Below, one piece after another: positions 2,930 to 46,498 of a stretch of 46,924 bases of DNA. Both the position numbers and the translations under genes were made by a program. Below the pieces are notes generated by a model. The model worked only from the letters and a program-made list of their open reading frames with translations, did no database searches and was not told the origin of the DNA. The first letter of the stretch is position 1. Every line of letters begins with the position of its first letter. Source of the stretch: Clostridia bacterium (GTDB lineage Bacteria; Bacillota; Clostridia; Oscillospirales; Acutalibacteraceae); contig JAQXZA010000150.1 of the NCBI GenBank assembly GCA_029226955.1, forward strand, positions 1-46,924, given 5' to 3'.

Positions 2930-5494
2930 TTATAATCTCGGGTCAACGGGTTCGCTTTCAAAGGCGAGAACACCAAACACACATTCGTGTACACGATACA
3001 GTGGTTCTTTCATCACAAAGCGGTCAAGTGATTCCATACCGAGAGAAAATTCTTTCAGTGCAAGACTACGCTTTCTTGTCAGTGAACGGTTCTTCAAACG
3101 TCTGAGATTATTTGAATTGAGATATTCAGGGCCATAGATAATTCTCAGATATTCTCTGCCTCTGCACTTGACAGCCGGCTGAATAACTTCACCTTTGTAG
3201 AATGATGTAAATAATTCAGGTTTTACAACCATACCTTCCCCACCATTTCCGGTAAGATTCAGCCACCAGTCAATACCCTTTTGTACGCTTTCTTCATTGG
3301 TTGTATCTACACAAATATAGTCCGTTGCCATAAATACAGGGTCAATCCCCGTACAATACTTTTTGATTGTTTCTATATGCCATATATGCGGCTTGTCTGA
3401 AAATGTATGCCCCTCAACCGCAAGAATATGAAACGGTGCAATTCTGAAATCATCAACACTATTGACTTTCCAGCAGTATTCACGGTAAGCGTCAACATAA
3501 CGCTCCATAGCGTCTTTTTTGGATTGGTATTCTTTCAGCAACTCAACAGGGTCAAAATTCTGTCCTGAGCTTTCCTTTGATACCTCAAACGGAACATTTC
3601 CTCTGTCACACAGCTTTTCAAGTGCCTGTACAGCCGCTGTCAAGCCGTCACGACCTGCCCTGCCGACAGGTGCGTATTGCTTTTGCAAAAGTTCCTGTGC
3701 CTTTTCCGACCACGGCATAAGTTCCGTATCAAAGCATACCCAATCAGTTTCAAAATCTTTCCAGAATCCCGATTGTGTCAGCACATTATCAAGTCTGTTG
3801 AGAATTTGCTTTTCTGTTTCAGTATCATTAAAGAAATGTCTGCCTGTTCGGGTATATATTATACCTCTGCTGCCGTCAGTGATATTAAAGCGTTTTTCCG
3901 CTGTTTCCGTGTTTCTGCAAAGCACAATAACTGCACGTGAACCCATATGCTTTTTCTCACAGACCACATTTTTAATATCACGGCTACGGTAATATTCAAA
4001 AGCTTCAATCGGGTGTTCCAGAAATCCGTCAAGACTGCTCGTCTTACACGGTGACATAGTAGGCGGCAAATAAATCAGCCAGTGCGGGTCAGCCGCAAAT
4101 CGTGACATTATCTCCAATGCCGCTGCGGAATTATTTTCGTGTACGGAAATATTCGGCATAAGTTTAGTGTTAAGATACAGTTTTCCGCTTATATCACCGA
4201 GTGTCAGCATATCGTCGGGTTCACTTTTTGATTTTGTTATAGGCTTAACAGGTTCATAATATTGCCTCAGAGCCTTAACACTCACACATTCTCTTTCGGG
4301 ATAACGAAATGCCGTAAGACTGCCACCGAACACACAACCTGTATCAATACAATATGTACCGTTGACTGCCCTTACTTCCGATTGCGGAATATGTCCGTAA
4401 ACAATAGTTGCCCGTCCACGATAATCTGTCGCCCAGTCAAGACGAACAGGCAAACCGTATTCGTCGGTTTCTCCCGTGGTTTCACCGTACAAACAGAAAT
4501 CACGAACTTTCATAGAACCACGTCCGATATATTCCTTTTTGATACCGGCGTGAGAAATTACAAGTTTACCATCATCAAGTACATAATGGCTGACAAGTCC
4601 GTCCAGAAATGCGGCGACTTCATTACGGAAATCATCACTTTCATTTTCAAGCTGTGAAACGGTAATATCCAGTCCGTGCGTCATTTGTACATTTTTTCCT
4701 CTTAGATATTTCAGCAGCTTAACATCGTGGTTACCGGGTACGGCAATAGCGTTATCTGACTTCACCATATCCATTACAAGACGAAGTACCTCAGTATTTT
4801 TTGTTCCTCTGTCGCATAAATCTCCGAGAAATGCCGCTTTTCTGCCGCAAGGGTGAACCATAATGCCCTGTTCGTTCTTGTAATAACCAAGTTTTTCAAG
4901 CAGCATAACAAGTTCATCATAACAGCCGTGAATATCGCCGATAATATCAAACGCTCCGTGTTCGTCACGCTTGTTATTCCATAATTTTGTACGAACAATT
5001 TCGGCATTATCGACTTCCTCCTGAGAGTTCAGCACATAAACAAACCGAAAACCCTCTTTTTTGAGATGCTTTATACTTCTGCGAAGGTCAGTACAATGTT
5101 TCCTTATCACTCTTTCGGGATAACCTCTGTCGGCTCTTGCGGCATTTCTTTTCAAAAGTTCTCTTTCGGGCAAATTCAGCACTATTGCCACAGCGTGAAC
5201 ATTCTGTTTATAAGCAAGGTCAATAATTTGCTTTCTTGCACTCTGCTGAACATTTGTAGCGTCAATGACTGTCGTTTTCATACGGTCAAGCCTCTTATTT
5301 GCCGCATAATAAAGCAAATCAAAGGCATCTGCCGATACAGTCTGATTATTTTCATCGTCTGAAATCATTGCACGGAAAAAGTCGGAAGATAATACCTCTG
5401 TCGGCAAAAAATGCTTATTCGCAAATGTTGTTTTGCCGCTTGAAGTCGCACCAACCATAGCAACAAGGGCAAATTCCGGTATTTCTATACGCAT
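2930..5494 (-). CDS. pnkp: Bacterial polynucleotide kinase-phosphatase-ligase (Pnkp), RNA repair
   Basis: N-terminal P-loop GATSSGKTTFANKHF; metallophosphoesterase motifs GDIHGCYDEL, GDLCDRG, GNHD; C-terminal adenylyltransferase motif KKHMGSRAV; adjacent Hen1. Confidence 0.96.
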   Translation of the reverse strand: MRIEIPEFALVAMVGATSSGKTTFANKHFLPTEVLSSDFFRAMISDDENNQTVSADAFDLLYYAANKRLDRMKTTVIDATNVQQSARKQIIDLAYKQNVHAVAIVLNLPERELLKRNAARADRGYPERVIRKHCTDLRRSIKHLKKEGFRFVYVLNSQEEVDNAEIVRTKLWNNKRDEHGAFDIIGDIHGCYDELVMLLEKLGYYKNEQGIMVHPCGRKAAFLGDLCDRGTKNTEVLRLVMDMVKSDNAIAVPGNHDVKLLKYLRGKNVQMTHGLDITVSQLENESDDFRNEVAAFLDGLVSHYVLDDGKLVISHAGIKKEYIGRGSMKVRDFCLYGETTGETDEYGLPVRLDWATDYRGRATIVYGHIPQSEVRAVNGTYCIDTGCVFGGSLTAFRYPERECVSVKALRQYYEPVKPITKSKSEPDDMLTLGDISGKLYLNTKLMPNISVHENNSAAALEIMSRFAADPHWLIYLPPTMSPCKTSSLDGFLEHPIEAFEYYRSRDIKNVVCEKKHMGSRAVIVLCRNTETAEKRFNITDGSRGIIYTRTGRHFFNDTETEKQILNRLDNVLTQSGFWKDFETDWVCFDTELMPWSEKAQELLQKQYAPVGRAGRDGLTAAVQALEKLCDRGNVPFEVSKESSGQNFDPVELLKEYQSKKDAMERYVDAYREYCWKVNSVDDFRIAPFHILAVEGHTFSDKPHIWHIETIKKYCTGIDPVFMATDYICVDTTNEESVQKGIDWWLNLTGNGGEGMVVKPELFTSFYKGEVIQPAVKCRGREYLRIIYGPEYLNSNNLRRLKNRSLTRKRSLALKEFSLGMESLDRFVMKEPLYRVHECVFGVLAFESEPVDPRL

Positions 5495-35549: not shown

Positions 35550-35627
35550 TTGAAAAGTCAGAAATTTATCGGTTTAATTCTATTGAAAAGTCAGTAAAAT
35601 CGTGCTAAAATCTTATTGAAAAGTCAG
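35550..35627 (+). repeat. Three 12-bp direct repeats TTGAAAAGTCAG at exact 33-bp period, overlapping promoter elements
   Basis: Copies at 35550-35561, 35583-35594, 35616-35627. Each gives a -35 (TTGAAA); the first two have a -10-like hexamer 17 nt later (TTTAAT 35573, TAAAAT 35606). Confidence 0.9.
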
Positions 35628-35642
35628 AACAGAGGTGATTTT

Positions 35643-36995
35643 GTGTTATTCCGCAAGATTCAGACACTGATTGAAACACATTTGAAAAGCGATACCAATA
35701 AAATTTTGCTGATTGACGGTGCAAGACAGGTCGGCAAGACTTATATCATTCGTTATGTCGGACAAAAGCTGTTTGAAAACTTTATCGAACTCAATATGGT
35801 AGAGGATTCACTCGGTGACCGACTTTTTGCCGAAGTAAAAACTATTGATGATTTCTATCTTCAAGTCAGTATGCTTGCCGGCAATAAAATGAAACAAAAA
35901 GAAAACACACTTATTTTCATTGATGAAATACAGGCATATCCGCATTTGCTGACATTGTTAAAATTCCTGTCGCAAGACGGAAAATTTACATTTATTGCCA
36001 GCGGTTCACTGCTCGGTGTCACACTATCACAGACAACCTCAATTCCTATGGGCAGTATTCGCAAAGTGCGTATGTTCCCACTGGATTTTGAAGAATTTTT
36101 ATATGCAAACGGACTTGGTGAATTAGTTGTATCAGAAATGCGTAAAAAGTTTGAGCGTGAAGAAGAACTTGATGAACCTACACACAATAAAATAATGGAT
36201 TTATTCCGCAAGTTTTTATTGGTAGGCGGTTTGCCTGACGCCGTAAACTCTTATCTGAACGACCATAATATTCAGCTTGTACGTGAAATTCAAAGCGAAA
36301 TTCACGACTATTATGCCACTGACGCATCTAAATATGACAACGAGAAAAAACTAAAAATCCGCCGTATCTATGACCTGATTCCGTCCAATATGGAAAATAA
36401 GAAAAAGCGTGTAATAGCACAAAGCATAGAGAACAAAAAAGGCAAGTCGTTCAGTGATTACAGTGATGAGTTCGAGTATCTTATAAGTGCCGGTATTGCC
36501 CTCAATGTTCAGGCAATATCTAACCCGGTTTTTCCGTTGATTGAATCGACAGGCAAGAACCTGTTGAAATTGTATCTGAATGATGTCGGTATTCTTACGG
36601 ATATTTTATACGGCAATAATATTCGTGCTATTCTGAATGATGAAAACAGTATAAATCTTGGTTCTGTTTATGAAACTGTTGTTGCAAGCGAACTTATCGC
36701 ACACGGATATAAACTTTTCTATTACGATAACCGAAGTAAAGGTGAAGTAGATTATCTTATTGATGATTATAAAAATCTGTCCGCTGTGCCTGTTGAAATT
36801 AAGTCCGGCAAGGATTATACGGTTCACAGTGCCTTGAACGCTTTTATACAGAATGAAGATTATCATATCAAAAAGGCTTATGTTCTTTCAAACGCAAGCA
36901 CCGTCACTCACAACGGCAAGATAACATATCTTCCGATTTATTATATTATGTTTTTTCAGAACACACCTGATGATATAAAAGACCTGAAATTCTGA
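35643..36995 (+). CDS. DUF4143-type AAA ATPase with PD-(D/E)XK-like C-terminus
   Basis: Walker A DGARQVGKTYIIR, Walker B LIFIDEIQAYP; C-terminal KGEVDYLIDDYKNLSAVPVEIKSGK; RBS AGAGGTGA before GTG 35643 (track start 35616 lies in the repeat). Confidence 0.9.
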   Translation: MLFRKIQTLIETHLKSDTNKILLIDGARQVGKTYIIRYVGQKLFENFIELNMVEDSLGDRLFAEVKTIDDFYLQVSMLAGNKMKQKENTLIFIDEIQAYPHLLTLLKFLSQDGKFTFIASGSLLGVTLSQTTSIPMGSIRKVRMFPLDFEEFLYANGLGELVVSEMRKKFEREEELDEPTHNKIMDLFRKFLLVGGLPDAVNSYLNDHNIQLVREIQSEIHDYYATDASKYDNEKKLKIRRIYDLIPSNMENKKKRVIAQSIENKKGKSFSDYSDEFEYLISAGIALNVQAISNPVFPLIESTGKNLLKLYLNDVGILTDILYGNNIRAILNDENSINLGSVYETVVASELIAHGYKLFYYDNRSKGEVDYLIDDYKNLSAVPVEIKSGKDYTVHSALNAFIQNEDYHIKKAYVLSNASTVTHNGKITYLPIYYIMFFQNTPDDIKDLKF

Positions 36996-37089: not shown

Positions 37090-38319
37090 CTATGACAACA
37101 GCCAGTCAATTAAATTAAGAGATTTTATGCCGTCATAGGATTTTATGAAACTTCTGTCCATAGACAATACGATTTTTTCGTAGTTGTCAGGTATCATACG
37201 CAGAGGGCGGAGTTCACGCTCACGGGTTTCAGGTGACTGCATACTTTCTGTGACCTGAATGTATAACTTATCATCAGGTTTTTCCGCAACAAAGTCAACT
37301 TCTGTTTCCCCCACTTTGCCGATATATACACGGTAATCACGACGGATAAGTTCAAGAAAGACAATATTTTCAAGAATATGACCACGGTCAGCGTCACGAT
37401 AACCTAGAAGCATATTGCGAAAGCCTATATCAATAATATAGATTTTCCCAAGAGTTTTTAATAATTGTTTGCCTTTTACATCATACCGACCGACATAAAG
37501 GAAAACATAGGCATTGCGTAACAGAGAAATATATTTTTCTACTGTTTTACCGGCAACATTTTTTCCTTTTAAATTCTGAATGTCGCCTTCATCAGATAAA
37601 ATATTACCTATTTTATTCGGAGATGTTATACTTCCTATATTGGAGCAAAGGAACAATATTATTTTTTGCAACATAGTTTGGTCAACCTGATTATTTTTTT
37701 GAAGAATATCCCTCAGAACAACAGTTGAATAAATACCGTCCAAAGCCTGATTTATTCTTGCCACATCAAACTTATATTCTTTTAATATCGGCATTCCGCC
37801 AAATTGCAGATACCTTTGAAATTTTTCGTCCATTGTAACTGATTTATCAAACTCATAGAATGTAAGAAATTCCTTAAACGAAAGCGGCAGCATACGGATT
37901 TCCACATATCGTCCTGAAAGCAGAGTGGAAAATTCCGTAGAAAGCAGATAAGCATTTGAACCAGTAATATATATATCCACGTCAAAATCAAGACGGAATG
38001 ATTCTATTGCTTTTTCCCAGTGTTCCACGGCTTGCAGTTCGTCAAAAATCAAATAGGTTTTTCCCTCTTTTGAAATTCGTTCACTTACATAATCATAAAA
38101 AGTCAGATAATTTGTAATATCACGATAACGCAAAGACTCCATATTCATATGAATAATATTTGAATCAGCTACTCCATTATCCGTAAGATACTGATGAAAC
38201 AAGTCAAGCAATGATGATTTTCCACACCTACGGATACCTGTAACAATTTTAACCAAATCCACATCTTTATTCTGAATCAACTGTTTTAAATATTCCGGTC
38301 GGTTGATTAACTTAGGCAT
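37090..38319 (-). CDS. DUF4143-type AAA ATPase
   Basis: Walker A GIRRCGKSSLLDLF; Walker B YLIFDELQAVEHWEKAI; C-term GETEVDFVAEKPDDKLYIQVTES; RBS AGGAGGTG. Confidence 0.92.
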   Translation of the reverse strand: MPKLINRPEYLKQLIQNKDVDLVKIVTGIRRCGKSSLLDLFHQYLTDNGVADSNIIHMNMESLRYRDITNYLTFYDYVSERISKEGKTYLIFDELQAVEHWEKAIESFRLDFDVDIYITGSNAYLLSTEFSTLLSGRYVEIRMLPLSFKEFLTFYEFDKSVTMDEKFQRYLQFGGMPILKEYKFDVARINQALDGIYSTVVLRDILQKNNQVDQTMLQKIILFLCSNIGSITSPNKIGNILSDEGDIQNLKGKNVAGKTVEKYISLLRNAYVFLYVGRYDVKGKQLLKTLGKIYIIDIGFRNMLLGYRDADRGHILENIVFLELIRRDYRVYIGKVGETEVDFVAEKPDDKLYIQVTESMQSPETRERELRPLRMIPDNYEKIVLSMDRSFIKSYDGIKSLNLIDWLLS

Positions 38320-38346
38320 AGCACACCTCCTGAATTTATTATTTAT

Positions 38347-38374
38347 ATTATATCTGAATTTCCGACATAGTCAA
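38347..38374 (-). promoter_or_regulatory. Promoter for DUF4143 ATPase
   Basis: Minus strand TTGACT-(ATGTCGGAAATTCAGA, 16 nt)-TATAAT. Confidence 0.7.
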
Positions 38375-38382
38375 TAGTTTTG

Positions 38383-38462
38383 GACTTGCAAATCTGAAAC
38401 TTTATAAAATTCAAGAATTTCCGACTTGCAAGTCTGAAACTTTATAAAATTCAAGAATTTCC
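38383..38462 (-). repeat. Two tandem 40-bp direct repeats upstream of DUF4143 ATPase, overlapping the jetD stop codon
   Basis: GACTTGCAARTCTGAAACTTTATAAAATTCAAGAATTTCC at 38383-38422 and 38423-38462 (1 mismatch); the second holds the palindrome GACTTGCAAGTC. Confidence 0.92.
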
Positions 38463-39776
38463 GACATAAAATTCTGTTTTTATATCTTCAATCATCTTGT
38501 CAATAAGCTGTTCCTGATAGCCGGCAAGTTTTTCTTTTTTTACCGCTGTGCAAACATCAAAAAGGCGTGTATCGGTCACACCGTCAAACTGAATCAGTCT
38601 TTCGTCAGTAACGGGTTTATCGGAAATTGAGTCATAATAATCCTGAACTGTCATTCTCCACGGACGGATTTTCTGCGGATTTCGGCATATAATTTTATTT
38701 GCTATTAAAATACCCTCAGGGTCGGTATCGCCCGAATAATATATTTCACAGTCGGAACGGCACAACATATCTATAAGCAAAAGTGACGCTGTTTTCATTT
38801 GTCCTGATGTACACAATGCCGATATTTTCATATCTTTGAGTTCTTCACAGATATGTGAAAACACAGTCTGATTTTCAAAAACATATACTTTTTTGCTCTC
38901 ACAGTCTGCACCTGTTATTTTTCCTAAATTTGAAAGCGTTATGACATAAGACTCTTTGTTTTTAATAAATTCACTGTATGCCTGATGTATGCCGTTTTCG
39001 GTGTAAAGTCTTATTCCGTAAGCCGTTGTAAAACTGGAAATATCGTCTGGTTTTATTCCGTATGAATAGTATAACTGCAATATTTCTTCTGCACTCATAT
39101 TTCCGCTTTTGTTTTGTAGAAAAGACAAAAGCTGTATCAACAGTTTTCCGGCAACTAAGTTTCTGTCAAAATAATGCGGATTGCGTGTTATTTCAGCCGC
39201 AAGAATTGCAAGACGAATACCGTTTTCAGAAATATGATTAAGATATTCAAAAGCACTGCAAACATTATATATTATATTTTCGGTTTCAGCTTTGGATTTT
39301 TCATATTCTGAAATTATGAGTTTGTAGCCGTAATTTTTATTTTTTCTGATATTTTCAAGCCAGCGTACAGAAGAACACTCATCACCATATTCTGACGAAA
39401 TTCTTTTGATAATTGCAGAAAAGAAATCCGATTTTTCGTTTATTTTTTCTGTTTTATATTCCTTGTTTGTTATCAGCTTTTCGCCGAAATATGTTTCAAG
39501 CAAATCATAAAGCGTTATGTTTTTATATTTTGTTTCGGAGAGTGCCTTTTCAAAATCTGACATTGAAAATTTTATTTTTTCAGTATTATTGAAATCCTTG
39601 CCGAGAAATCCGCCCAACAGCTCTTTTTCGCTGTCGGACGGATTGTCAAGAATTATATAACCGGCACTTCTTCCGTAATGCCGCCATTTCTTTTTCATCT
39701 GTTCAAAGGCACGGTTATAGCCGTTTTTGCTTTTAAAGTAATTAACACAGGAATTTAATTCATCACAATTATTCAT
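38451..39776 (-). CDS. jetD: Wadjet type II nuclease subunit JetD (TIGR02679-like, Toprim)
   Basis: C-terminal Toprim-like CEIYYSGDTDPEGILIANKII; N-terminal MKKKWRHYGRSAGYIIL; 8-bp overlap with jetC. Confidence 0.9.
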   Translation of the reverse strand: MNNCDELNSCVNYFKSKNGYNRAFEQMKKKWRHYGRSAGYIILDNPSDSEKELLGGFLGKDFNNTEKIKFSMSDFEKALSETKYKNITLYDLLETYFGEKLITNKEYKTEKINEKSDFFSAIIKRISSEYGDECSSVRWLENIRKNKNYGYKLIISEYEKSKAETENIIYNVCSAFEYLNHISENGIRLAILAAEITRNPHYFDRNLVAGKLLIQLLSFLQNKSGNMSAEEILQLYYSYGIKPDDISSFTTAYGIRLYTENGIHQAYSEFIKNKESYVITLSNLGKITGADCESKKVYVFENQTVFSHICEELKDMKISALCTSGQMKTASLLLIDMLCRSDCEIYYSGDTDPEGILIANKIICRNPQKIRPWRMTVQDYYDSISDKPVTDERLIQFDGVTDTRLFDVCTAVKKEKLAGYQEQLIDKMIEDIKTEFYVGNS

Positions 39777-42700
39777 TCAAAATCCTTTCGTGTCCGTTCC
39801 AGTAATAGTTTATTACTGTTACAACATCTGAATTTGCCGGACGCAAAAGCTCGGCAATACGAAGTGACGGTACGGTTTCATAACAGCCCCACAAAACCTG
39901 AGAATTGATTATATAGTCAAAATCAAGTTTCTGCACCAGTTCAAACATACTGCTTATATTTTTGTCGTCAACTCCGGCGAATGCCTCATCAAGTGCGATA
40001 ATACGTGGGTGGTCGTTGTTTTCGGCTTTTTTGTACTGTGCATTTACCGCCGCAAAAAGCGGAACATACATAGCCATTGCCTTTTCACCGCCGCTGAAAC
40101 GGTTAAATGCTCCGTTTGTAAGTTCTTTTTTGGACTCGGAATTTCTGTAATAATACATTTTAAATTCAAACCATTTTCTGTAATCGAGTGCGTCCCTTAC
40201 CAAATCGGAATAATTCACCGTTTCGCCGTTTTCCTCAGCCGTCTGTTTTGCAATATGAATTTTATTTCTGAAATGCGAGGAAACCCTGTCTATATCCTGT
40301 GTTGTGAGAAGTTCCCTGTCACGTGCAAGAAGTTTTTCGAGTTCGGAAATTTCAAGTTCGTTGTCGTTTTCGGCACTTCTTGCTTTCCAGTCAAGCGAAA
40401 ATGTCAGCCCCATTGATGTATCCATATTCTGCATAAGTGCTGACATATCCTTTATCCATCTGCGGCTCTCGGAAATACGTGCATTAAGTTTACGGCTTAA
40501 TGTATCGGCAAGGATATTTTCAAACAGTTCACGGTCTTTTTCCTGTATAAGCTGCTCCGTACTTTCTATCATACTTTTAACAGCAACGCAAAAATCGTTG
40601 AAATACAGTTTCTGCCCGTTAAGCGTTGCATAAATACGTTGTCTTTTTCTCAGCGTATTGGTATTTTCGCTGTTTTCAAAGCAGTCTTCAAGCGTTGCAC
40701 CGTAAATTGCAATATTGCTGTTGTATTTCTGAAATTTGTTATGCAGTAACGTTATCATATCAGAAACGGATTTATCCTTGTCATTATTATGAATACAGCC
40801 GACTGCTTTTTTCGCTGTTTCATAGGACGAATTGCCGACCTCATCAAATACAAGATTCAAAGACAATTCTTCTTCAAAATAGGTTTTCAGATTTTCCGTT
40901 ATTGTCATAACTTCCGCACTTTTGATTTTTGCGTTTTCTATTTCCGTTTCAAGCCTTGAAATATTATTTTCGGCAACAGCTATTTTTGTTTTGTTGTCGG
41001 AATATCTGCTTTCGTTTTCTCTGAGCATACGGTTTATCTGAGTAAGTCTTTCGGCTTTTGCCTTAACTTCGGGATTGTTCAAAAATTCATTTATCTGATT
41101 TATGAGTTTATCATAGCTTTCAACTTTTCTTATTATATTTCTCAGTTCAGCCTGTGTTTCGTCAATAATATCGTTTTCGCTGTCGATATTATATTGAACA
41201 TTTTCATATCTGATTTTTGCATTATTGTATTTAGTAACCGTCTTATCAAGCTCAATAAAGATATTTTTATAGTCTGATACTGCCTCTCTTACTTCTTTGT
41301 AGCTTTCGGTGTTCCGTGCGTAAGGAAGTATCTTACAGGCAGTAATCATATCCTGTTCGCATTTTGTTTTTACCGCTGACAAATCAAGCAGTATTTTTTC
41401 CTGAGCGTTAAAATCTCTTACGGCGGAATTATAATTCATTTCGCACTCTTTTGACATATCTATTGACCTGTCAAGGTCGTCATATTTCGGCAAAGCGTTT
41501 TTATCTTTTTCGAGAGTTGAAATTCTTTGATTTATTCCGTCTGTTTCATTTCTTAAAGCATTAAGCTGTTCTGTACATACATCTATTTCTTTTTGCTTTT
41601 CGGCAATTTGTTTTTCCTTGTTTCTGCGTCTTGCATTAACGCCGATATACATAGCGTCACTGTCAGCGGTGCTGTAACCTTCAAGAATACCGTTGCGGAA
41701 ATATCCGTCGGGAGAAACAACAAACTTACTGTCGCTTTCTCTTTTCTCGCTGAAATCCGCTAAAATTTTTTCCGTCTGAAATTTCAGTTCACTGTGAATA
41801 TCATCACTTATTTTCAGCTTGCCGAATTTTTCCGTGCCGTTTCCGTCAGTATGAATTATTACATCAGAATAGCCTTTTAATAACTGTGTTGCCTTTTCGT
41901 AGTCGTTTTCGGCTACAATAAGAGAGTCAAGCAATCCCGAATCCGTAAGCTGACATTCAAGCATATTCTGTTCATCAGCACTTATGTTATCGGCAAAATC
42001 AACAGCCTCATAGAACGGTATGAAATTTATGCCGTTTTGTGTAAGTATTTTTCGTGTTTCCTGTACTCTTTTACTTCTTTCGGGAACAGGTTCTTTCATA
42101 TTTATAAGCTGTTGAAGTTCGTTTTCAAGTGATTTTTTTGACTTAATAAGACTGTCCTGTTCTGACTGAATGTCAATTTTAATACGGTACAGTTCATTAT
42201 ATTTTTCATTGTACAAAGAGTTTGTAATATTCAGAATTTCGCCGTAATCAGCCGGACTTTTATACTGCTTTATAAGTTCAGACAGCTTTTGAACGGTTTC
42301 ACTATTCAGAATAAGTTCTTTGTGTTCGTCAGCAAAAATATAATATTGTTCTGTTATGCTGTCCCTTGATTCGTCTTCAAGTTTTCTTGCGGAATTAAGT
42401 TCCTTTTCAGCTATTGACTTATTTTTACTGCGTTTTTCGAGTTCTTTTTCTGCATTGTTACATTCATTTGTTTTTTCTTCAAACCTGTTCACAGCGTCGA
42501 ATGCAGTATTTATATTTTTTGACAGACGGTTAAGTTCATCAGAAATATTCCTTGAAATACGTTCATAATCATTACTTTCGGGCAGTTCTTTTACATCATT
42601 GTGTTTTTCAAAATTCAGTATATCGTTTTGTTCGTCAAGCTGTAAAAAAAGATTTTCAATATTGTATTTATAGTCATCTGTTTCTTTGAGGATATTTTTT

Positions 42701-43815
42701 TGCTGAACTTCAAGCCTGTAAATCTTGTCTTTGCTTTTTGAGATTTTTTCGGATTTTCTGTTCTTGTTCTCAATTTCCTCATTTCTTGCGTTTTCATATT
42801 TCTGACGCTGATTTACATTTTCCTCTATGTCAGAAATATTTATTGTGCTTTTCTCGGATTCAAGTTCGGATTTTTCTATTCTTAAAATCTCGTTTTCGTC
42901 ATTAAGTTTTTTAACTTCTTCTTTTCCTGATGTAAATTCTTTTTCTTTTTTCTTCAAATCCGCACTGATAGAGTCAGAATCAGACTTTGCGTCAAGAAAA
43001 GCCTCTGCTTTTTTTGAAAGCATATAGCGGTTGTACCTGTCGTACTCAGTTTTTATGTTCTGCAAATCACTGTATGTTTCCTTTAAATTTTCAAGTCTGC
43101 TCTGAATACCGTCCATATCTTCCATAGCGTCAACCATTGCGTGAAGGTCATCATCAGACAGTGTTTGAAGTGAATCGTTAAGAATATCATAAACCTTTGA
43201 CGGCTTGAACTCCTTTGACAGCTTAGGGGCACGAACCTTTATGAGAAGTTTTATAAACTGTTCATACTGCTCAATGCGTGGAAAACCGAATATATATTTA
43301 TTCACAAAAGCCATATATTCCTTTTGTGTTTCGGCAAAGATATTTCCGTCACCGAGTTTCTTTTTCAAATCCTGTTTAGTGTAAGGGATTTTTCTTGTGC
43401 CGATTTTTTGATAAAGGAACATATCATAGCCTATTCTCTGATTATCAAGAATGATAAATCCCCAGAACTGCATAGGCTTTCCTTTCTGAGCCCTCTGACC
43501 TATTCCTATTGTGCGGTACTGTTCGGTATTTTGTTTTTTAAATTCAAGAAACAAATAACCTGTCACATCATCTTTTTCATTGTCGCCGAGAAAATAATAC
43601 TCCATTTTTCTGTCGCTTGAACCAAACGGGTCAAGTCTGCTCGGAGTTCTGTCGCCGTCAAGTATAAAAGGGATAATGCTTTGTGTAGTTATTGATTTTC
43701 CCGAACCGTTCTGTCCTTTAAGGAGTAATTTTCCGTCAGAAAACTCAAATATTTCTTCATCATAAAGCCAAAAATTAACAAAGCCTATTCTGTTCATCTG
43801 CCAACGGTTGTCCAT
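39769..43815 (-). CDS. jetC: Wadjet type II SMC-like ATPase JetC (TIGR02680-like)
   Basis: Walker A LLKGQNGSGKSITTQSIIPFILDG; long coiled coils; signature NRFSGGEKAMAMYVPLFAAV; Walker B RIIALDEAFAGVD. Confidence 0.95.
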   Translation of the reverse strand: MDNRWQMNRIGFVNFWLYDEEIFEFSDGKLLLKGQNGSGKSITTQSIIPFILDGDRTPSRLDPFGSSDRKMEYYFLGDNEKDDVTGYLFLEFKKQNTEQYRTIGIGQRAQKGKPMQFWGFIILDNQRIGYDMFLYQKIGTRKIPYTKQDLKKKLGDGNIFAETQKEYMAFVNKYIFGFPRIEQYEQFIKLLIKVRAPKLSKEFKPSKVYDILNDSLQTLSDDDLHAMVDAMEDMDGIQSRLENLKETYSDLQNIKTEYDRYNRYMLSKKAEAFLDAKSDSDSISADLKKKEKEFTSGKEEVKKLNDENEILRIEKSELESEKSTINISDIEENVNQRQKYENARNEEIENKNRKSEKISKSKDKIYRLEVQQKNILKETDDYKYNIENLFLQLDEQNDILNFEKHNDVKELPESNDYERISRNISDELNRLSKNINTAFDAVNRFEEKTNECNNAEKELEKRSKNKSIAEKELNSARKLEDESRDSITEQYYIFADEHKELILNSETVQKLSELIKQYKSPADYGEILNITNSLYNEKYNELYRIKIDIQSEQDSLIKSKKSLENELQQLINMKEPVPERSKRVQETRKILTQNGINFIPFYEAVDFADNISADEQNMLECQLTDSGLLDSLIVAENDYEKATQLLKGYSDVIIHTDGNGTEKFGKLKISDDIHSELKFQTEKILADFSEKRESDSKFVVSPDGYFRNGILEGYSTADSDAMYIGVNARRRNKEKQIAEKQKEIDVCTEQLNALRNETDGINQRISTLEKDKNALPKYDDLDRSIDMSKECEMNYNSAVRDFNAQEKILLDLSAVKTKCEQDMITACKILPYARNTESYKEVREAVSDYKNIFIELDKTVTKYNNAKIRYENVQYNIDSENDIIDETQAELRNIIRKVESYDKLINQINEFLNNPEVKAKAERLTQINRMLRENESRYSDNKTKIAVAENNISRLETEIENAKIKSAEVMTITENLKTYFEEELSLNLVFDEVGNSSYETAKKAVGCIHNNDKDKSVSDMITLLHNKFQKYNSNIAIYGATLEDCFENSENTNTLRKRQRIYATLNGQKLYFNDFCVAVKSMIESTEQLIQEKDRELFENILADTLSRKLNARISESRRWIKDMSALMQNMDTSMGLTFSLDWKARSAENDNELEISELEKLLARDRELLTTQDIDRVSSHFRNKIHIAKQTAEENGETVNYSDLVRDALDYRKWFEFKMYYYRNSESKKELTNGAFNRFSGGEKAMAMYVPLFAAVNAQYKKAENNDHPRIIALDEAFAGVDDKNISSMFELVQKLDFDYIINSQVLWGCYETVPSLRIAELLRPANSDVVTVINYYWNGHERILNE

Positions 43816-44957
43816 TATTCTTCACCCTCTGCAATTTTAAAATCCTTAGGATATTTTCCGTCAAATATTCCTGCTGACGAATATATCACAATATTTTCAC
43901 TGTCAATAACATCAAGCATTTTCCATATTTTCATATTTCCGATTATATTCAGAATCAGCTTTTCATAAGTCATTTCACGGTATTCCTTACTCCACGCTGA
44001 AACATATTTATCTCTGCAATTCTTTATAACAGATTTGAAATTCTCCATACTTATATAAATACAATCGTTTGAATTTCTGACAAGAATGTTTTGTTCAGTC
44101 TGTTTTCTTATTTCTGAACATACAAGCAAAACTATTTCAGATATTGCCTTGCTGTCGGGGAAACACTCTCCTGTACAGTCATTCTCATACATAACAAAAA
44201 ATGCCGAGTTTTTATGTATTCTCAGTTCTCCGCCTATATTACTGTCAAGAGTTTTCTGTATTGCATTACGCTGATTTTTGATGTATATAGAATCTGGATT
44301 ATCGTTTTCCGTCCAGTAAACACCGGGTGACGCAACAAGCTGTCTGTAAACCCTGTTTATCCTGAAATGTCCTCTGTCGGTCTGGGTATCGTCAATATGT
44401 TCTTTCTCAAAATCCTTGTATGTTTTGTATGACGAAATATCCCTGTTAAAATTAGTCGCAAAATATCTTGAAAGTCCCGTGTTCACATACAGAACTTCCC
44501 TGTCTATAATGTCTGAGGTTTTTTCGTTTGAGGAATCAACTATTTTCATAAGACCTGTGTTTTCCGCAAATTTCAAAGCCCTTACAAGCGATTTTCTGTG
44601 TGAAAAGATAGTCGAATCAAGCTGAATAAACTCTTTTAACTGAATTGTAATCATATCAACAAGTTCTGACAGCAAAAAGGGTTCTCCGTCCTCCCTGTCT
44701 TCCAGAAAAATCAGAAGTGCCGACAAAATGCAATAATCAAGTTTATCGGTAAATTCCGTTATTCCCATAAAACTTTCCGCACAGGCGGGAATTTTCTCAA
44801 CCTTTAATATTTTATCGTTAATTATCAGTCGCCAGCCAAGCTGTTCAACAATGAATTTTCGTGCCTGATTTATTTCACGTTTGGTTTTTATATAGGTGTC
44901 TTTATCCTTTGACTTGTCAATCCAAAAATTTTCAAGAAGTTTTTTTACCGAATCCAC
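43815..44957 (-). CDS. jetB: Wadjet type II subunit JetB (TIGR02678-like)
   Basis: Position between jetA and jetC with 1-bp overlap; KRE-INQARKFIVEQLGWRLIIND...LCILSALLIFLEDRE-type sequence (DUF2398-like). Confidence 0.88.
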   Translation of the reverse strand: MDSVKKLLENFWIDKSKDKDTYIKTKREINQARKFIVEQLGWRLIINDKILKVEKIPACAESFMGITEFTDKLDYCILSALLIFLEDREDGEPFLLSELVDMITIQLKEFIQLDSTIFSHRKSLVRALKFAENTGLMKIVDSSNEKTSDIIDREVLYVNTGLSRYFATNFNRDISSYKTYKDFEKEHIDDTQTDRGHFRINRVYRQLVASPGVYWTENDNPDSIYIKNQRNAIQKTLDSNIGGELRIHKNSAFFVMYENDCTGECFPDSKAISEIVLLVCSEIRKQTEQNILVRNSNDCIYISMENFKSVIKNCRDKYVSAWSKEYREMTYEKLILNIIGNMKIWKMLDVIDSENIVIYSSAGIFDGKYPKDFKIAEGEE

Positions 44958-44960
44958 AAC

Positions 44961-46433
44961 TTACACCTCCTCAAATTCCATCACATATTTTGGCATAACA
45001 AGGTCGCCGTCAGTGCATTTCAGCGTACACTGTCCGTCTTTTTTTACAAGATGAAATTTTCTGCCAAATTCCGTTGACGCTGTTTTTGAGTTAGTCATAT
45101 TTGCAAGTGAAATCCATCTGAGAAGTGTAGTTCTTGTGTCCTCTGATATACATTCATCAATATCCGAAATATCAAGCCTGTTATTCCTGATATATTTAGT
45201 CACCATATTCTTATTCTTTTCGACCTGTTCAAGATACTGATTTTTCTGCATTTGTTTTTCCATACTTTTATTTTCAAAGCCTGTTTTATCCGCTCTCGGC
45301 TTATATGTTCTTGTATGCGGCTGTAAAGCATACTGCATAGGTTCTTCATTGTATGTACTGCTGTTAATGCTGTCTGTTGAACGGTCATTATTCACTTTAT
45401 AATGTTTTAAATGCTGTATTCCGAAAACATACGCTGACAGCTTGTGTGCCTCATCAATATTTTCGCAATCTGCAAACATAGAGATAAACCTTTTGTAATC
45501 GTCCTTACGGCTTATTCCCCAATTCTGAGTCTGTATAATCAATGACGCATTATGCACAATATTGCTGATTATCCTGTCGGTTATATCCATAACTCTGTTG
45601 CTTTCACTCTGAAAACTGTCAGTTGAAATAAACCAGTTTTTTATTTCCTGCCATCTGCCAAAGGTTAAATTTCTTATGTCATCTTCGGTAAATCTTACCG
45701 ATTCAACTAAGTTTCTCGGTATGTCAAGTTCACTCTGTACAATCTTTTCTAGTAATTCTTTCTCGGTTTCCTCAGGAATGTGTTTCAAAAGGCTTTCAAT
45801 ACGCATTGACTTGATTTTTAATTCCTGTACAAAGTCTTTAAGATACTGCACCAGTTTATCCTTGTGAAGTACAAACTCCATAGATTTCATTATCTTATCC
45901 GCACGACCTGAATAAAACTCTCTTAAATAGTCCTTATAGTTCTGATTAAGTCTTTGAAAATCTTCCTGTAAATTTTTCCACCATTCGTTTATCTGGTTAA
46001 GCGGCAAATCCTTTACATTTTCCGCATTACTGATAGACTGTTCAATTCTTGTAAAGTAATTCGGCGACAAACTGCCTGTTTCTATAAACAGATTTTCAAG
46101 TTTTACCGTCAGTTTTTCTATCTCAACGGAATATTCAGACATTGAGTAACTGTACTGTCTGTTTTTATATTCCTCGATTGTATAAACTCTTTTCGGGTCC
46201 TGTATTGCAACAAGGTTTTTCCAGTTTACGAGTGCGTCAAGGTCACTTTGCAACTGTTCCATAGTATAATCGGAAAATTCCGAATATTTTTTTATTTTCT
46301 CAAAAATTTCTTCTTTGTGCATTTGACCGTGCATTTTCTGGTCTTCTTCATAGAAAATCCGCATAATTCTTCTGTATCTTACCGAATTTCCCGTTGAAAG
46401 ATATGTCATCTCCTGTATTGCTTCAAGCTGCAT
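44961..46433 (-). CDS. jetA: Wadjet type II subunit JetA (TIGR02677-like)
   Basis: MQLEAIQEMTYLSTGNSVRYRRIMRIFYEEDQKMHGQMHKEEIFEKI (DUF2397-like); first gene of the jet operon. Confidence 0.88.
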   Translation of the reverse strand: MQLEAIQEMTYLSTGNSVRYRRIMRIFYEEDQKMHGQMHKEEIFEKIKKYSEFSDYTMEQLQSDLDALVNWKNLVAIQDPKRVYTIEEYKNRQYSYSMSEYSVEIEKLTVKLENLFIETGSLSPNYFTRIEQSISNAENVKDLPLNQINEWWKNLQEDFQRLNQNYKDYLREFYSGRADKIMKSMEFVLHKDKLVQYLKDFVQELKIKSMRIESLLKHIPEETEKELLEKIVQSELDIPRNLVESVRFTEDDIRNLTFGRWQEIKNWFISTDSFQSESNRVMDITDRIISNIVHNASLIIQTQNWGISRKDDYKRFISMFADCENIDEAHKLSAYVFGIQHLKHYKVNNDRSTDSINSSTYNEEPMQYALQPHTRTYKPRADKTGFENKSMEKQMQKNQYLEQVEKNKNMVTKYIRNNRLDISDIDECISEDTRTTLLRWISLANMTNSKTASTEFGRKFHLVKKDGQCTLKCTDGDLVMPKYVMEFEEV

Positions 46434-46469
46434 ATTACAGTCACACCTTATATATATATTATATGACAT

Positions 46470-46498
46470 ATTATAAAGCAAAATATTTGTTTTTTCAA
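46470..46498 (-). promoter_or_regulatory. Promoter for jetABCD
   Basis: Minus strand TTGAAA - 17 nt (AAACAAATATTTTGCTT) - TATAAT upstream of jetA. Confidence 0.75.

Follow-up and report, generated by a model that had tools for sequence, protein, structure and literature searches.

The three direct repeats upstream of an AAA_14 and DUF4143 ATPase gene in a 46,924-nucleotide stretch of DNA from a Clostridia bacterium (the window) are probably cognate sites for the ATPase encoded directly downstream, and the gene is probably autoregulated through them, as judged from comparison of sequences. The ATPase, of class I (35643-36995, plus strand), has a GTG start, a length of 450 aa and an ExD...ExK nuclease-like C-terminus, and the PADLOC model PDLC04792 for PDC-S01 (590 bits) covers its residues 1-442, a full-length match. 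PDC-S01, in which an ATPase is joined to a PD-(D/E)xK domain, is a widespread candidate phage defence that reportedly ranks fourth in frequency among prokaryotic defences, and most such candidates still await experimental validation (PMC12988326); in rumen genomes it is reported to be the most frequent single locus (PMC13356809). The window ATPase has both the ATPase and the PD-(D/E)xK-like domain of this definition, through its AAA_14 and DUF4143 matches. A second AAA_14 and DUF4143 ATPase, of class II and with the nuclease lysine missing, lies at 37090-38319 on the minus strand (PDC-S01 model PDLC04787, 508 bits), and PDC-S01 models also match representatives of classes I and III. Both genes adjoin a complete Wadjet II system (jetABCD2, PADLOC) at 38451-46481 on the minus strand and so stand in a defence island, as expected of PDC-S01. 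Two plasmid class I ATPases, at L393 and L396, are close to AbiE and HipA toxin-antitoxin genes.

The word TTGAAAAGTCAG is found exactly at 35550-35561, 35583-35594 and 35616-35627 of the plus strand, with spacings of 33 and 33, which confirms the exact 33-bp period reported in the first-pass annotation; the hexamers TTTAAT and TAAAAT that it placed 17 nt beyond the first two copies are likewise present. Copy 1 has an identical register in relatives. The TTGAAA of copy 2 (35583-35588) doubles as a -35 box and is followed at 17 nt by the -10 box TAAAAT with a TG extension (35606-35611), where relatives have TATAAT; the sites therefore overlap the gene's own promoter, as those of an autoregulatory operator do. 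Copy 3 lies over the expected transcription start, a predicted position, and is followed by the ribosome-binding site GAGGTGA (35632-35638, plus strand). No other equally spaced exact 12-mer triple is present in the 46.9 kb of the window, and none arose in 100 first-order shuffles of it. Tandem Repeats Finder ranks this array second in the window, the top rank going to 38383-38465, where the minus-strand DUF4143 ATPase has its array. Within the 2.6-Mb genome TTGAAAAGTCAG has five exact occurrences, three of them in the array; a TTGAAAAGTCAG regulon was considered for this genome and rejected, as the two further exact copies are both single and one lies within an ORF.

Whether such repeats precede homologous ATPases was the check proposed in the first-pass annotation, and they are present upstream in 77 of 77 ATPases with at least 52% identity, in three to five copies each, although most of these loci were picked by motif and about 22 were found without it. 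Relatives retrieved by protein search alone have these sites too, in an unchanged register. The copies are spaced by 33 bp in 179 cases, 32 in six and 34 in two, the last copy stands 10-63 nt upstream of the start codon, and copy number varies between species (3-5). In the reverse direction, a scan of prokaryotic genome contigs for three TTGAAAWGT at 33 bp gave at least 116 arrays. Among the 116 listed, 60 have an intact ATPase gene directly after the array, 18 more match the ATPase in a stretch that ends early, with a few of these looking decayed, and the rest comprise 7 with remnants, 22 where 1.5 kb or more holds no ATPase and 9 where a short stretch holds none; none of the 116 has the ATPase on the array's other side. 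One array, L122 on a Campylobacter contig, looks like a chance match within other repeats. A search of phages returned a single viral contig with an array, L406, with the ATPase directly after it (1288-2733), and no two-copy TTGAAAAGTCAG pattern was found on phages.

About a quarter of the motif-selected arrays listed are orphan or lie beside ATPase remnants. At L050, L104, L154, L088 and L120 the array stands beside a decayed ATPase of which the C-terminal part is left, and L051 corresponds to the L005 locus without the segment from the last copy through 29 nt past the stop, the array being kept. Recent gene loss is the simplest account of the orphan arrays, apart from a four-copy one described below. 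The alternative that they are targets of an ATPase elsewhere in the genome was rejected, given that 20 of the 29 genomes with such arrays lack a match at E<=1e-60. The same five loci, together with L075 and L089, have the ATPase cut to a fragment and the array kept, a pattern of recurrent deletions. A four-copy orphan with no ATPase adjacent is found in two Ruminococcus genomes, at 3946-4020 (plus strand) of L058 and on the reverse strand of L115; these loci are 95% identical over 7.6 kb, and the fourth copy, outside the selecting pattern, is intact in both.

Beyond this clade, the period depends on the class of ATPase. DUF4143 ATPases, mostly from three phyla, were collected by protein and family search and dereplicated at 60% identity, with class I defined by GARQxGK and a length of about 450 aa, class II by GxRRxGK and about 400 aa, and class III by likeness to PDLC04789/04790; many genomes in the survey are metagenome assemblies, start codons outside annotated plasmids were assigned heuristically, and nulls were first-order or mononucleotide shuffles. 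The best self-match lag falls at 31-34 bp in 18 of 33 class I upstream regions (null 7%, p=8e-13) and at 38-42 bp in 13 of 35 class II upstream regions (null 6%, p=7e-8), and the control, 170 bp downstream of the genes, has no such peak in the same class. The class II period appeared again in a fresh set, which retained some close relatives, at 39-41 bp in 16 of 45. By the simple self-match test about half of the deep class I and two thirds of the class II upstream regions have no clear array, and neither period is enriched in the dereplicated class III set. Within class III a best lag of 32 bp occurs in 7 of 49 upstream regions (p=0.07 for 31-34), possibly a minority with arrays. The hold-out comprised 14 class I genes on plasmids of Bacteroidota, Bacillota, Actinomycetota, Gammaproteobacteria, Chlamydiota and Fusobacteriota; starts were annotated for 13 of them and came from alignment for L393. 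A 32/33-bp repeat at p<=0.037 was present in 13 of the 14, the fourteenth having a full-score match at 66 bp; a fifteenth plasmid locus, without an open frame, was left unscored. The class II period is represented in the window by the minus-strand ATPase's own array of GTCGGAAATTC, in the region 38320-38465, with copies at 38455-38465, 40 bp further on at 38415-38425 and a further 59 bp on at 38356-38366; the last copy sits inside the promoter spacer, between TTGACT (38374-38369) and TATAAT (38352-38347).

If spacing follows the class, the sequence of the site is private to each ATPase. Class I words of 12-13 bp, in 2-5 head-to-tail copies at 32-33 bp before the gene's own start codon, are common; GTCAAATTCGTGG is an example of a word from a paralogue other than the window ATPase. 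In the clade of the window array the suffix following TTGAAAAGT tracks the ATPase tree, with 6 changes against 28.6 when shuffled. The spirochaete genome G846 (L328, L351-L370) has 27 DUF4143 matches, among them seven class I paralogues that are 28-49% identical where BLAST aligned them and that have seven 13-bp words of their own at 32-33 bp; at 11/13, no spirochaete word matched the upstream region of any other paralogue. The genome of the window likewise has three ATPases and three words, TTGAAAAGTCAG at 33 bp, GAAWWWTGTTAC at 32 bp (C9) and GTCGGAAATTC at 40 bp for the minus-strand neighbour. The diagonal of the cross-match and the agreement with the tree thus tie the sequence of the site to the gene's own product, as expected of an operator, by correlation. 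The suggestion of the first-pass annotation that the repeats are perhaps bound by the ATPase is strengthened by this covariation as far as the cognate link is concerned, and binding itself is what the link would imply.

The window array was first taken for a duplicated promoter. On such a view slippage would have multiplied a complete promoter into tandem promoters, one per repeat, and in the window a -10-like hexamer does follow both copy 1 and copy 2 at a distance of 17 nt. This is very unlikely given what is conserved in relatives. Among protein-first pairs the identity of neighbouring copies reaches about 0.9 over TTGAAA.GT, drops to 0.5-0.67 in the three bases that follow and lies at the background level in the spacer, so that it is limited to the 12-bp word. 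In 34 of 45 cases from Clostridia the TTGAAA of the penultimate copy is followed at exactly 17 nt by a TATAAT-like hexamer, and a perfect TATAAT follows the penultimate copy in 32 of 45 but the preceding copy in 3 of 43; the -10 is therefore conserved after the penultimate copy alone, and this copy doubles as the -35 with the last copy over the expected start. Furthermore, the class II copies of the window supply no -35, and a -35-like hexamer is missing from many class I words. Given that the 12-bp sites are conserved and the spacers are not, and that the penultimate copy is the -35 of one promoter, the arrays look like operators and not duplicated promoters, which favours the other half of the first-pass reading, operator-like modules upstream of the ATPase, the same modules preceding homologous ATPases. 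It might also be asked whether the repeats function as RNA or encode a peptide, since 33 nt is a multiple of three and equals 11 codons. This is extremely improbable: periods of 32, 40 and 41 also occur, there is an in-frame stop after window copy 2, copies 1 and 2 are upstream of the expected start site, and the RNA fold is not above chance (z 0.09), with no Rfam match.

Operators may of course be bound by a host DNA-binding protein that regulates the gene in place of the ATPase, and defence-island regulators exist, such as RptR (PMC12255303). Nevertheless, this is unlikely, since seven paralogues of one genome have seven different words, the word moves with the gene across phyla as well as following the ATPase tree, and a separate regulator would need an unseen co-transfer; private words for each paralogue make a shared host factor unlikely and indicate the ATPase itself. 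A different possibility is that the array belongs to a unit that moves or replicates, as an end, an attachment site or an origin bound by an Orc1/Cdc6-like ATPase, the promoter overlap being secondary. The scattering of the gene among genera, the resemblance of the fold to origin-binding Orc1/Cdc6 and the existence of orphan arrays are consistent with such a unit, but copies downstream of the gene show no clear excess (27 against 19.6 expected), the difference between L051 and L005, in which the gene is missing and the array kept, is explicable by deletion, and the fixed overlap with the promoter is left unexplained, all of which makes this reading quite unlikely.

AlphaFold2 models (pLDDT 89 and 91) match AAA+ proteins, and the top structure matches include DNA-bound archaeal Orc1/Cdc6 (2qby, 2v1u), Apaf-1/NLR STAND proteins and Avs, all with low TM-scores (0.2-0.45); a search for solved relatives by sequence returned just a short and weak match to Midasin. 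From the reading of secondary structure, the DUF4143 region is inferred to hold a winged helix. Of the nuclease-like motif residues in the alignment, E368 and K387 are invariant and D370 and E385 nearly so, and ExD...[EQ]xK is found in 71 of the 80 proteins of class I and in 48 of the 61 of class III. Class II proteins (alignment A2) have Q-x-(not K) in 69 of 76, which suggests that their nuclease domain is inactive. Class II mostly lacks the nuclease lysine yet has arrays of this kind too, so the function common to the ATPase classes is probably not cleavage, and the comparison points to DNA binding instead.

The mechanism proposed for the cognate sites is that ATPase protomers would bind the copies, probably via the winged helix of the DUF4143 region, and that the bound protomers would line up head to tail in an oligomer, the geometry of which would set the spacing of about 33 bp for class I and about 40 bp for class II. 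In the clade of the window array the penultimate copy is the -35 box and the last copy lies over the expected transcription start or the ribosome-binding site. With sites lying across the -35 and +1, binding would be expected to repress rather than activate transcription, a direction that we infer from the position of the sites alone, and the defence ATPase would be kept low until released or depleted.

Within the open-licence literature a single paper mentions DUF4143, in passing, with nothing linking these ATPases to repeats, and the published descriptions of PDC-S01 that were found contain no cis array, class-specific periods or private words. A CRISPR array, with near-identical repeats of at least 23 bp and Cas genes, was rejected, as the conserved word is only 12 bp and no Cas family is present in the neighbouring proteins scanned. 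Archaeal Orc1/Cdc6 proteins bind repeated sites near their own gene. A possible likeness to them lies in the AAA+ and winged-helix fold, since they are among the top-ranking PDB structures, at low TM-scores, and the Pfam matches of the ATPases are AAA_14 and DUF4143 only, not those of the Orc1/Cdc6 family; moreover, the repeats here overlap the promoter, the words differ with each paralogue, the period differs with the class and there is a nuclease-like domain. Antitoxin operators, restriction-modification control boxes and RptR are similar in placing repeated sites over the -35 and +1 of a defence gene, but those operators are short palindromes whereas the repeats here are direct, with a period of 32-33 or about 40 bp, and here one ATPase would be both effector and regulator. 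The iterons of plasmid replication initiators are also head-to-tail direct repeats adjoining the gene of a presumed binder; unlike them, the present arrays have a longer fixed spacing, unconserved spacers and no replicon context, and lie at chromosomal defence loci.

The comparisons suggest a wider rule, in which the spacing of the sites is fixed by the class of ATPase and their sequence is private to each ATPase, each recognising and controlling its own promoter. The array thereby predicts the binding word of each ATPase from sequence alone, which provides an experimental handle, and from the period of each class the geometry of the oligomer can be predicted. More speculatively, these ATPases may be minimal Orc/STAND-like machines on a private row of sites, the array being both operator and docking platform, on which a nuclease-bearing oligomer would be held inactive and from which it would be released by infection, so that one gene would be sensor, effector and repressor. 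If this tentative picture is true, diversification of the word would allow many paralogues, such as those behind the 27 DUF4143 matches of one spirochaete genome, to exist without cross-talk.
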